Part shown: piece after piece, positions 310 to 9,302 of the stretch
How positions within the stretch are numbered: position 1 is the stretch's first letter
Layout: each line of letters begins with the position of its first letter
Notes under the pieces: generated by a model
What the model was told of the DNA's origin: nothing
The model's input: the letters and a program-made list of their open reading frames with translations, nothing else
The model's database searches: none
Origin: Candidatus Azambacteria bacterium
Lineage (GTDB): Bacteria > Patescibacteriota > Minisyncoccia > GWC2-36-17 > M10-OD1-4
Direction: 5' to 3'
Assembly (NCBI GenBank): GCA_016200995.1
Contig: JACQDS010000063.1
Location: 1-11,541 of the forward strand
Length of the DNA: 11,541 nucleotides
Position numbers and translations under genes: made by a program

Positions 310-328
310 ATTTAGTATAAGTTGCTTA

Positions 329-393
329 AGCTAAAAGCTTCCGCCAAAGGCGGATCAGCCTCTGGCTGAATAAGCTAAAAGCTATAAGCTAAT
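329..393 (+). repeat. AGCT heptamer array upstream of rplJ, interrupted by two small hairpins
   Basis: AGCT occurs at 329 and 336, then three full heptamers follow at 373-379 (AGCTAAA), 380-386 (AGCTATA) and 387-393 (AGCTAAT). The last unit ends three bases before the GTG start of rplJ. Between the two blocks sits a segment of two adjacent hairpins (340-369). The same heptamer family precedes atpB and atpE. Confidence 0.8.
340..369 (+). other. Two adjacent 6-bp hairpins with three-base loops
   Basis: TCCGCC (340-345), loop AAA, GGCGGA (349-354) is directly followed by TCAGCC (355-360), loop TCT, GGCTGA (364-369). Each is a perfect 6-bp stem. The pair sits inside the AGCT heptamer block, as if inserted. 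No T-run follows, so these are not terminators. They would lie in the rplJ 5' untranslated region. Confidence 0.65.
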
Positions 394-1419: not shown

Positions 1420-1458
1420 TTAAAGGCGTTGTTTATCTTGTTAAGTTATAAGTTTTTC

Positions 1459-1500
1459 AGCTAAAAGCTAAAAGCTAAAAGCTAAAAGCTAAAAGCTAAC
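1459..1500 (+). repeat. Six tandem AGCTAAA heptamers upstream of atpB
   Basis: Five perfect copies of AGCTAAA (1459-1493) are followed by AGCTAAC (1494-1500). The array ends three bases before the atpB ATG at 1504 and leaves no room for a Shine-Dalgarno sequence. It is preceded by TAAGTTTTTC, close to the TAAGTTTTT that precedes the atpE array. Each pair of neighbouring units can form an AGCT-AAA-AGCT mini-hairpin. Confidence 0.95.
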
Positions 1501-1503
1501 TTT

Positions 1504-2250
1504 ATGGATGGAATACATATAGCGCTTTCTGCTGAAAAAATTACGGAAATATTCGGAGTGCCGATAACCAACACTCTCTTGATGAGTTTTGTGGTCTTTG
1601 GCATTTTGCTTTTAATCGCTTTTTTTGTCGGCAGAAATTTAAAGATAGTTCCGGGGAGAGTTCAGGTTTTATTTGAAATGCTTTTCTCTTATGTCTTGAG
1701 CTATATGGAAGAAACCCTTGAAAGCAAAAAGCTCGCAAAAAGATTTTTCCCGCTTGTGCTGACTATATTTCTTTTTGTTTTTGCCGCAAACTTGGTAGAA
1801 TTCACTCCCGGTGTCGGAAGTGTCGGATTTTACTTCGGAGCCGGCGAACATAAGGAGTTCGTGCCTCTGCTTCGCTCTATGAACACCGACTTGAACGTGA
1901 CGTTGGCATTTGCGATAATATCATTTTTGACGATCGAGATCACCGGCGTAGCGGCTATAGGATTCTTGAAATATTTCTCAAAGTTTGTTAACTTTAAGTC
2001 TGTGCTTGGTTTTTTGATAGGCGTTATAGAGCTGTTTTCAGAGATTGCGAGATTGATAGCTTTTTCCTTTCGTCTCTTTGGAAATATCTTTGCCGGCGAG
2101 GTGCTGATACTTGTTATCACATTTTTTGCGCCTTTTGTTTTGCCGGTGCCTTTGATGGCCTTTGAGGTTTTTGTCGGGTTCATTCAAGCGGCGATATTCG
2201 CTCTTTTGACGCTGTTTTTCATCAAGATAGCTGTGACGAAACCGCATTAG
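1504..2250 (+). CDS. atpB: ATP synthase Fo subunit a
   Basis: Subunit a is the membrane stator that forms the two ion half-channels next to the c-ring. The 248-residue product is very hydrophobic, with about five to six membrane segments (for example 27-43, 83-100, 132-152, 166-178, 196-216, 222-244). The family signature SFRLFGNIFAGEV (188-200) contains the essential arginine, R190, equivalent to E. coli R210. MNTDLNVTLA (126-135) and Q228 in the last helix are also typical positions. It is the first gene of the classical atpBEFHAGDC cluster; no atpI precedes it. The ATG at 1504 lies directly after the heptamer array; no Shine-Dalgarno sequence is visible. Confidence 0.97.
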   Translation: MDGIHIALSAEKITEIFGVPITNTLLMSFVVFGILLLIAFFVGRNLKIVPGRVQVLFEMLFSYVLSYMEETLESKKLAKRFFPLVLTIFLFVFAANLVEFTPGVGSVGFYFGAGEHKEFVPLLRSMNTDLNVTLAFAIISFLTIEITGVAAIGFLKYFSKFVNFKSVLGFLIGVIELFSEIARLIAFSFRLFGNIFAGEVLILVITFFAPFVLPVPLMAFEVFVGFIQAAIFALLTLFFIKIAVTKPH

Positions 2251-2298
2251 AATTGATGATTTGTGATTTAAGATTTTAGAATTAAGAATTAAGTTTTT

Positions 2299-2565
<267 letters not shown>

Positions 2566-5923: not shown

Positions 5924-7248
<1,325 letters not shown>

Positions 7249-9222: not shown

Positions 9223-9302
9223 CAAAAACTTCGCCGTTGCGAGGACAAGCGGAGGCCTCCGCAGGAGAGGCCGTAGCGGGTGAAGGCGCGGGGTGTGTTT
9301 CT
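9223..9302 (+). repeat. 80-bp GC-rich interspersed repeat, copy 2
   Basis: It is 95% identical to 37-116 (four substitutions, no gaps) and in the same orientation. It contains a perfect 14-bp palindrome GCGGAGGCCTCCGC (9249-9262), an inner stem GGCCTC (9254-9259) with GAGGCC (9267-9272), and an outer stem CTTCGCC (9229-9235) with GGTGAAG (9279-9285). Weaker similarity continues about 10-15 bases to the right. Like copy 1 it sits roughly 50-60 bp upstream of a + strand promoter. Confidence 0.85.

Follow-up and report, generated by a model that had tools for sequence, protein, structure and literature searches.

What are the tandem AGCT heptamers that stand directly before three start codons in a ribosomal protein and ATP synthase gene cluster of Candidatus Azambacteria, and do they help to start the genes behind them? 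The window, by which we mean the whole stretch of DNA analysed (11,541 nucleotides), carries the L10-L7/L12 genes and ATP synthase genes and belongs to a genome, G000, of 612,635 bases in 96 contigs that is 86.7% complete. An initial annotation had read the arrays as a translation-initiation element in the position of a Shine-Dalgarno (SD) sequence, as an mRNA stability element made of AGCT-AAA-AGCT mini-hairpins or as a phase-variable spacer. Our analysis identifies a real, non-random element that is strongest in one genus and patchy across a class that we take to be Paceibacteria. A translational role is the best reading of this element, with roughly an even chance of being right, and a functionless slippage repeat is its main rival.

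Arrays and predicted hairpins in the window

The arrays precede rplJ, atpB and atpE at the positions first reported for them, and Pfam matches identify all three genes (Table 1). The distances of 3, 3 and 4 nt to the start codons likewise hold if the final 7-mer is taken as the end of the array; measured from the last AGCT they become 6, 6 and 7 nt. The three bases that follow AGCT vary, being AAA, ATA and AAT at rplJ, AAA five times and then AAC at atpB, and AAA, ATA, ATA, GAA and GTT at atpE. The string AGCTN3AGCTN3AGCT has eight overlapping matches in the window, compared with 0.00 in 200 dinucleotide-preserving shuffles. The atpB and atpE arrays do have the flank TAAGTTTTT in common (1449-1457 and 2290-2298), a presumed left arm that could pair with AAAGCT via G-U wobble. 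No Rfam family scores above its gathering threshold at the arrays, either in the window, where the L10 leader is the only match, or at six array loci.

Table 1. Heptamer arrays of the window with their genes, predicted 5' arms and neighbouring elements
Feature	Position	Strand	Remarks
Ribosomal protein L10 leader, RF00557	192-319	+	cmscan 45.1 bits, gathering 44; precedes the rplJ array
Predicted 5' arm GCTTAAGCTAAAAGCT pairing with the rplJ array	324-339	+	Fold of 320-399
rplJ array, AGCT heptamers	373-393	+	Last AGCT ends at 390, 6 nt before GTG 397
rplJ, ribosomal protein L10	397-927	+	PF00466, E 3.3e-25; start GTG 397
Predicted 5' arm AAGTTATAAGTTTTT before the atpB array	1443-1457	+	Fold of 1430-1506; holds the flank TAAGTTTTT
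atpB array, 6 AGCT heptamer units	1459-1500	+	Last AGCT ends at 1497, 6 nt before ATG 1504
atpB, ATP synthase subunit a	1504-2250	+	PF00119, E 8.8e-42
Second, degenerate heptamer array, GATTTAA type, in the atpB-atpE gap	2265-2297	+	Tandem Repeats Finder, period 7
Predicted 5' arm AGTTTTTAGCT of the atpE stem-loop	2292-2302	+	Fold of 2251-2340
atpE array, 5 AGCT heptamer units	2299-2333	+	Last AGCT ends at 2330, 7 nt before ATG 2338
atpE, ATP synthase subunit c	2338-2565	+	PF00137, E 4.6e-19

The region before rplJ (320-399) folds into a stem-loop with a z-score of -3.93, none of 200 shuffles being as stable, and that before atpE (2251-2340) into another with a z-score of -2.77 (3 of 200 shuffles as stable). 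Both leave 10 unpaired nucleotides through the start codon, the start codon included. The fold of the atpB region (1430-1506) has a z-score of only -0.45, not clearly better than shuffles, and its left arm is partly paired. A covariance model, R1, built only from 19 elements of another genus (g28, described below), matches this same region up to the atpB start codon (E 4.8e-6); elsewhere in the window its matches are weak (315-397 at rplJ, E 0.1; 2280-2331 at atpE, E 0.2). R1 also matches several other G000 starts, down to E 7.6e-10. The atpB-atpE junction is a co-directional, structured gap; rplJ is instead preceded by the L10 leader, where no open reading frame (ORF) is seen.

Comparison with close relatives gives a mixed picture. 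Neither G001, of the same genus, nor G002, of the same family, has any (AGCTN3)3 array, and R1, run over 84.5 kb of these two genomes, has no match with an E-value of 1 or less. In G001, rplJ, atpB and atpE begin at the same codons as here, but that genome carries ACCTATA-type heptamers before two other starts.

Other features of the window deserve mention in their own right. A double G+C-rich palindrome (CCGCC...GGCGGATCAGCC...GGCTGA) lies at 341-369, between two AGCT stretches of the rplJ leader, and a near copy precedes another AGCT repeat on contig C18 (L027, about 2207-2236). A G+C-rich dispersed repeat (aacttcgccgttgcgagga...cgggtgaaggcgcggggtgtgtt), which contrasts with the otherwise G+C-poor genome, occurs in near-identical copies at about 38-113 and 9223-9299, flanking the gene block. 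The 5' end of atpD (5924-6060) looks disrupted: translation from the ATG gives a typical N-terminus but soon meets a stop, and the long ORF picks up again at 6022 in a different frame; the upstream part is open in G001, and the disruption could be an assembly error.

Position before start codons in genome, genus and class

Across G000 the pattern has 30 overlapping matches in 14 arrays, and its reversed form has none. Contexts read by eye place the ends of 10 of the 14 arrays 3-9 nt before a start codon, six of them at exactly 6 nt. Nine of these 10 consist of AGCTAAA-type units on the sense strand, and one of the 10 is counted at the TTG start of what is presumably a RuvX-like gene. The arrays on contigs C30 and C72 are left arms whose matching right arms reach start codons (gaps of 1 and 5 nt), and the remaining two lie inside genes, one in the N-terminal part of a protein that we take to be pilin-like and one within a presumably glycosyltransferase-like ORF. 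Behind G000 arrays stand ordinary housekeeping genes, among them those for L5, an M48 peptidase, a Clp-type ATPase, a type II secretion F-domain protein and a protein with an N-terminal methylation motif.

For the placement tests, genes were called as the longest non-overlapping ORFs of at least 60 amino acids (70 or 80 in some surveys, 100 in the SD tests), the first ATG, GTG or TTG being taken as the start codon. Only arrays flanked by called genes on both sides were used, and those with an identical flank were dropped, which retains 9 intergenic and 2 coding arrays of the 14 in G000. Six of the nine lie within 12 nt of a start (null 2.9, p 0.0145); this is an undercount, because a longer antisense ORF took the place of atpE in the gene calls, and the atpE array was scored at 238 nt.

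The same placement is far more pronounced in g28, a genus of four species (G030, G075, G097 and G118), all four genomes of which carry 10 to 25 matches. Among the 41 of 42 listed arrays that were analysed (one of G097 was left out), 26 are intergenic and 15 lie inside ORFs. For 22 of the 26 intergenic arrays a start lies no more than 12 nt away (3-5 nt for 20 of them), compared with a null of 5.2 that reached this figure in 0 of 2000 permutations. All 22 start-adjacent arrays are in sense orientation and none is antisense. Every one of the 26 sits in a co-directional gap, an arrangement shared by 32 of 46 background gaps (40 nt or longer) sampled from two of these species. Operon-type sites include S7 to EF-G and S11 to S4 (the S7 tail falls below Pfam's cut-off), and other neighbours are the genes for S13, S7 and SSB, together with fragments without a Pfam hit that we take to be recA and the tail of S12. 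The same junctions (ssb, EF-G, recA-like) carry arrays in two or three species, and at orthologous junctions such as ssb the number of units varies between species, one genome being available for each. A phase-variable spacer, as once suggested, sits badly with genes of this kind (L10, L5, ATP synthase, EF-G, S4, S7, S13 and SSB), which are housekeeping genes.

Arrays of three units occur in 20 of the 54 genomes of our first panel, G000 included, and arrays of four units in 71 of 383 genomes of the class, a patchy distribution. The notion that the arrays are an oddity of G000 was accordingly rejected. In other class members 9 of 22 arrays lie within 12 nt of a start (null 4.6, p 0.008). Placement before starts beyond chance, as first proposed, is thus borne out strongly in g28 and moderately in G000 and the rest of the class. 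A wider collection scan covered 80 of 115 loci, of which 12 were titled as Patescibacteria phyla and 68 were others, some titled only 'bacterium'. Start enrichment is absent both in the former (3 of 8, null 4.0) and in the latter (5 of 45 start-adjacent, null 6.4), which include Shewanella, Vibrio, Pleurocapsa and Dyadobacter. A general bacterial start element is unsupported by the counts outside the Patescibacteria titles.

The surveys also brought up arrays in other settings. At L263 (G293) some 20 AGCTAAA-type units follow one another without interruption, 3 nt from a start between divergent genes. At L008 and L009 (G003 and G004) AGCT heptamer arrays directly precede sequences that we take to be tRNA-like, with no start codon after them. 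In-frame arrays within ORFs (L023, L188, L193, L195, L197, L309, L313, L333, L336) encode repeats such as LSAISYQ, SYKLQAT or KSYKLKA, and several presumably belong to leaders of pilin-like proteins or to variable-loop-like parts. An extended hairpin of inverted AGCT heptamer arms occurs at L022 (1501-1568, G017), in a sequence that, judging from its flanks, is presumably a 23S rRNA gene; the repeat is therefore tolerated in an rRNA loop.

Paired arms and changing units

The usual arrangement in g28 is a stem-loop that fills the gap between stop and start and has the array as its 3' arm, 19 of the 26 gaps being 67-89 nt long. The stop codon and a few nucleotides are followed by TTAGCTT(CA) units, a small loop, AAGCTAA units, 3-7 nt and the start codon. 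Measured against dinucleotide shuffles, gaps with arrays have median fold z-scores of -4.1 in G030, -3.3 in G075, -1.5 in G097 and -4.3 in G118, and the eight co-directional array gaps of G000 have a median of -2.9 (range -0.2 to -4.8). The corresponding medians for array-free gaps are -1.6, -2.5, -2.7 and -0.4 in the four species and -0.4 in G000. Hairpins in G075 and G097 are thus not special to arrays, because array-free gaps fold well there too. Three of the eight G000 gaps reach only -0.2 to -0.9; the left arm is not universal in that genome. A stem with a U run behind it, as in an intrinsic terminator, was not found on reading the g28 gaps: between the 3' arm and the start codon they have a short tail that is mostly A-rich, and several of the sites are operon-type junctions.

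Since shuffling destroys the repeats, the own left part of each element was also compared with the left ends of array-free gaps. This comparison took in 20 of 22 g28 elements and 5 of 8 G000 elements, with gaps of at most 160 nt and left parts of at least 18 nt. In g28, own left parts pair with the array at a median of -24.0 kcal/mol and array-free left ends at -7.4 kcal/mol (20 elements); between 0 and 8% of control left ends pair equally well, and the pooled p of 2.9e-13 is rough since controls were reused. The medians in G000 are -18.2 and -7.1 kcal/mol (5 elements, p 0.0016), one of the five pairing no better than most controls. Such pairing with a separate upstream arm, together with the non-palindromic cores of relatives' units (ACCT, AACT), argues against AGCT-AAA-AGCT mini-hairpins as the working unit.

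Within g28 the arms fit any partner. A swap test among 19 elements found no pair-specific matching (p 0.48 with fixed halves, 0.32 with a fold-based split), the arms being interchangeable in this test because all use the same unit. Pair-specific covariation was sought in the genus and not found, a MAFFT-based consensus fold having 11 pairs and only one with a double change. Half-swaps within each of 20 genomes show a modest tendency towards own arms (mean rank 0.40 against 0.5, the own value below the other in 15 of 20), and the same procedure in G000 shows no own-arm preference (rank 0.52).

Related arrays carry GGCT, CGCT, ACCT and AACT units besides AGCT. The early statement that all units keep AGCT is thus correct for the three arrays of the window and fails for their relatives, and AGCT is not essential, because other units occupy the same architecture in other lineages. 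What recurs is the heptamer period, the orientation, the start-adjacent position and, often, a hairpin.

The junction between rpsG and fusA allows arms to be compared between lineages. It was read in 28 genomes, comprising G030 and 27 of a panel of 30 (G003, G008 and G118 had no full-length match), and two gaps were not found. Arms at this junction are of the AGCT type in G030 and G075, pair TTAGGT with ACCTAAA in G293 and GTAGGT with CCTACCA in G004, consist of CTAAAAA in G165 and are of the TACGAAT type in G097, G028 and G252. Other genomes have plain hairpins, and in many the gap is very short or its sequence unrelated. Thirteen gaps are 45-120 nt long, and a swap test used 11 of them, G075 and G097 being omitted as congeners of G030 and the G028 gap being entered minus its first 9 nt. 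Between these 11 junctions, all from different genera, own halves pair at -22.2 kcal/mol and swapped halves at -8.4 kcal/mol (0 of 20000 permutations), with deep stems at eight and none in G000 and G033. Most tested lineages keep the rpsG-fusA hairpin while its arms differ together, a result that does not by itself prove a single ancestral hairpin. A second heptamer family, TACGAAT / ATTAGTATAATTCGTA, supplies rpsG-fusA arms in three different families (L343, L350, L365; L321), and an exact 16-mer of it is found in L321, L343 and L350.

In sampled gaps of class genomes, a sample biased because several contigs were chosen for arrays already found on them, 17 local arrays have period 7, and 11 of these use units other than AGCT; the units include TATTTAG, ATTAGAG, TTAGGAA, GATTTAA and ACTAGTA. 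Periods of 6, 8, 9, 10, 11 and 12 account for 2, 3, 3, 0, 0 and 1 arrays, and period 5 for 13. A general lag-7 signal is the largest mean lag residual over 28 genomes and only moderate (t 2.8, with 2.9 and 2.7 at lags 15 and 30), and we therefore relied on the local arrays instead. On the sense strand upstream of starts, CTA is enriched at period 7 in 12 of 514 flanks (0.1 when shuffled, 1.0 at other periods) and is the most over-represented period-7 trinucleotide there apart from ATT.

Candidate function, rival explanations and known systems

Replacement of an SD sequence at these genes in particular, the first suggestion made for the arrays, did not hold up, since SD motifs are near background at other genes of G000, G001 and G002 too. 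Strong anti-SD matches precede 12% of 104 array-free G000 genes (10% in shuffles), 8% of genes in G001 (7%) and 3% in G002 (4%), and they are modestly above shuffles in G030 (15% against 7%), G097 (19% against 7%) and G075 (9% against 5%). None of the array genes examined (13 in G000, 7 in G030, 6 in G097 and 9 in G075) has a strong match to the canonical anti-SD CCUCCUUUC, and GGAG, GAGG or AGGA precedes one of the 13 array-bearing genes of G000.

The 16S tails of the group are themselves varied. No 16S gene was found in the incomplete G000 assembly; the tails of G001 (CCTCCTTTC) and G002 are canonical, and that of G030 (CUUCUUAUC / CTTCTTATC) has an altered core, CTTCT; with this tail the leaders of the G030 array genes show no pairing beyond that of shuffles (-1.30 against -1.28). 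Among the 147 tails listed of 183 readable in the class, GGATCA is followed by CCTCC in 73, by TCTCC in 3 and by neither in 71. The replacements differ from family to family, for example ATTCAATTTGAA, TATCCAATTGGA and TTTCTTTTTAGG (example loci L050, L057, L049 and L061); further altered tails are those of G015 (TTTCT) and of G009 and G010, which have no such core. Arrays are no commoner in genomes with altered tails (17 of 74) than in those with canonical ones (14 of 73; Fisher p 0.69), and the array is therefore not simply a replacement for a lost anti-SD. Pairing of an altered anti-SD with AGCTAAA was likewise rejected, as TTTAGCT is absent on reading from the tails of nine genomes and the association with arrays is lacking. 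In an earlier survey 15 of 1,182 bacterial genomes were without an anti-SD, and A-rich leaders were indicated in Flavobacteria among such genomes (PMC3522020). The literature passages searched held no statement on anti-SD loss in the present group, and an earlier description of it may exist.

It is an evenly balanced proposition, in our estimate, that the array is the start-proximal part of an intercistronic translation-initiation or coupling element. On this reading, degenerate heptamers would build an RNA element that sits between two genes or in a 5' leader, and each array would be its 3' part. The complete element would span the gap from stop to start with U-rich TTAGCTT-type units, a small loop and A-rich AAGCTAA-type units that end 3-7 nt before the start codon. 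The stem would draw stop and start close together and leave an A-rich tail at the start codon, and ribosomes finishing the upstream gene would either reinitiate on the next gene or unfold the stem (coupling). The proposed setting is genomes where SD motifs are rare, and the exact unit would be interchangeable, drifting between lineages by heptamer slippage. The computed basis for this proposal is the placement, the sense orientation, the co-directional gaps of g28, the complementarity of the arms and the differing units with matching arms; from it we infer action at the level of translation. The translation-initiation element of the initial annotation is thereby supported in part, in that a translation-related reading fits best.

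Judged from summed unpaired tails, the stem would shorten the effective distance between stop and start from about 70-90 nt to 1-28 nt, which fits either reinitiation or unfolding, both models of translational coupling in the part of PMC12548453 drawn on here. At atpB, where the array and a partly paired arm are present and the fold is not significant, it may be the A-rich leader by itself that matters. The composition of the A-rich sense arm would suit binding by ribosomal protein S1; ORFs with at least three S1 domains occur in G001, G030, G097 and G075, and G000 has two single matches, one of them below the cut-off.

Several results count against the proposed initiation or coupling element. 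Pair-specificity is absent in g28, array-free gaps can fold well, and some G000 arrays have no left arm. Arrays also occur inside ORFs (15 in g28, 2 in G000), G001 has none, loci titled as Patescibacteria show no enrichment, many genomes have very short or unrelated rpsG-fusA gaps, and there is no association with anti-SD loss. Furthermore, in a screen cited in the consulted part of PMC12548453, structure just after the stop codon goes with weaker coupling.

The main rival holds that the arrays are functionless heptamer slippage repeats, cleared by purifying selection from coding frames, promoters and terminators and so left at the edges of gaps, with palindromes as a by-product; we consider this possible, if on balance improbable. 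The dominance of period 7 among local arrays in the sampled gaps (17, of which 11 non-AGCT) is what slippage would give, as are the arrays inside ORFs and in 23S-like sequence, the patchy occurrence of 4-unit arrays and the lack of start placement in loci not titled as Patescibacteria. Earlier work cited in PMC4679880 also found heptanucleotides to be the commonest long simple repeats in most genomes examined. Slippage does not, however, predict an orientation of 22 to 0, a gap of 3-5 nt in 20 of 26 cases or the restriction to co-directional gaps, nor does it predict complementary left arms or junctions shared by two or three species (ssb, EF-G, recA-like).

Alternatively, the stem might serve in mRNA processing or stability, as a site of RNase III cleavage or a block to exonucleases, and so separate and stabilise the messages of an operon. 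Long intercistronic stems at operon-type junctions, RNase III in all five genomes searched and the related stem inside the 23S-like sequence of L022 agree with such a role. RNase III is nearly universal, which makes its presence weak evidence, many stems are broken by bulges, and the tight gap of 3-7 nt and the A-rich sense arm are left unexplained; we hold this role to be unlikely. Less probable still is a stop cassette, in which AGCTAAA-like units carrying TAA (sense) and TAG (other strand) block read-in from upstream to the next gene: three heptamer units give a stop in every frame because 7 is not a multiple of 3, as follows from the AAA, ATA and AAC units, and both the period-7 enrichment of CTA and the stops in the Beggiatoaceae unit TAACTGA (PMC4679880) agree with it, but a stop-free array would have counted as coding, so that stops are expected in intergenic arrays anyway, and some start-proximal units (AGCTACA, AGCTATC) have no sense stops.

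It is tempting to extend the initiation or coupling element to the class of ultra-small Patescibacteria, half of whose readable 16S tails have lost the anti-SD core, with heptamer-armed stem-loops joining stop to start in many gaps of co-transcribed genes for SD-independent initiation or coupling, the form (period, orientation, arm pairing and the 3-7 nt gap) being selected and the unit rewritten lineage by lineage through slippage and arm-copying, and with the TAACTGA repeats of Beggiatoaceae as an independent case; this extension is tentative, and we would rather expect it to fail than to hold. Were the architecture kept while the unit changes, it would be a conserved RNA form without a conserved sequence, easily missed by searches in a single lineage. 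Should the repeat be functionless, it would show how strongly tolerance alone can shape repeat placement. How genes are started inside operons is poorly known in bacteria that make little use of SD sequences, above all in the uncultured Patescibacteria, and a recognisable module at S7-EF-G, S11-S4, SSB and ATP synthase genes offers a direct target that could be moved into a reporter.

Among known repeats, REP, ERIC, BOX and NEMIS elements are dispersed intergenic inverted repeats that are transcribed as hairpins and have a lineage-specific, fixed consensus, whereas the element described here has tandem heptamer arms, a drifting unit and a 3' end tied to the start codon. Short tandem repeats of the heptanucleotide type in bacteria go by the name STRR. 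Long simple repeats of heptanucleotides, as cited in PMC4679880, likewise have a period of 7 nt and are patchy among relatives; the account of them drawn on here mentions neither start-adjacent placement nor orientation nor complementary arms. In the literature searched, which lacks most subscription journals, no paper on the AGCT form was found; the string agctaaaagct returned nothing on bacterial repeats, judging by titles and the starts of abstracts, and a search on SD sequences in Parcubacteria or Patescibacteria returned nothing relevant by title.

The opinion that no element of this form had been described nevertheless has to be revised. TAACTGA heptamers, the nearest precedent, form direct repeats in Beggiatoaceae, some Cyanobacteria and Bacteroidetes (MacGregor 2015, PMC4679880), and in the part of that paper drawn on here they resemble the present arrays closely, being few-copy heptamer arrays that are mostly intergenic, run forward and end one to several nucleotides before starts. 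They are mostly without a ribosome-binding site, some lie in ribosomal-protein operons, including before fusA and S4, they are absent from a near relative, and a translational role was proposed for them. The units found here (AGCTAAA, AGCTATA, AGCTAAC and similar) are different ones, belong to another phylum and vary between lineages. Whereas TAACTGA arrays have no particular predicted RNA structure according to PMC4679880, g28 has median z-scores of -1.5 to -4.3 and paired arms. We have therefore not filed the AGCT element as a member of the TAACTGA family, because its unit differs and its arms are complementary.

A functional counterpart may be sought in translational coupling via intercistronic RNA structure (PMC12548453, the part consulted), which likewise lies between co-directional genes near the downstream start and is expected to tie translation of the second gene to that of the first; rpmI-rplT, with a spacing of 52 nt, is one example given there. 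The cases cited in that part of the paper are individual gene pairs, whereas the element described here is a repeated, heptamer-armed module in a setting with few SD motifs, for which coupling is a prediction.
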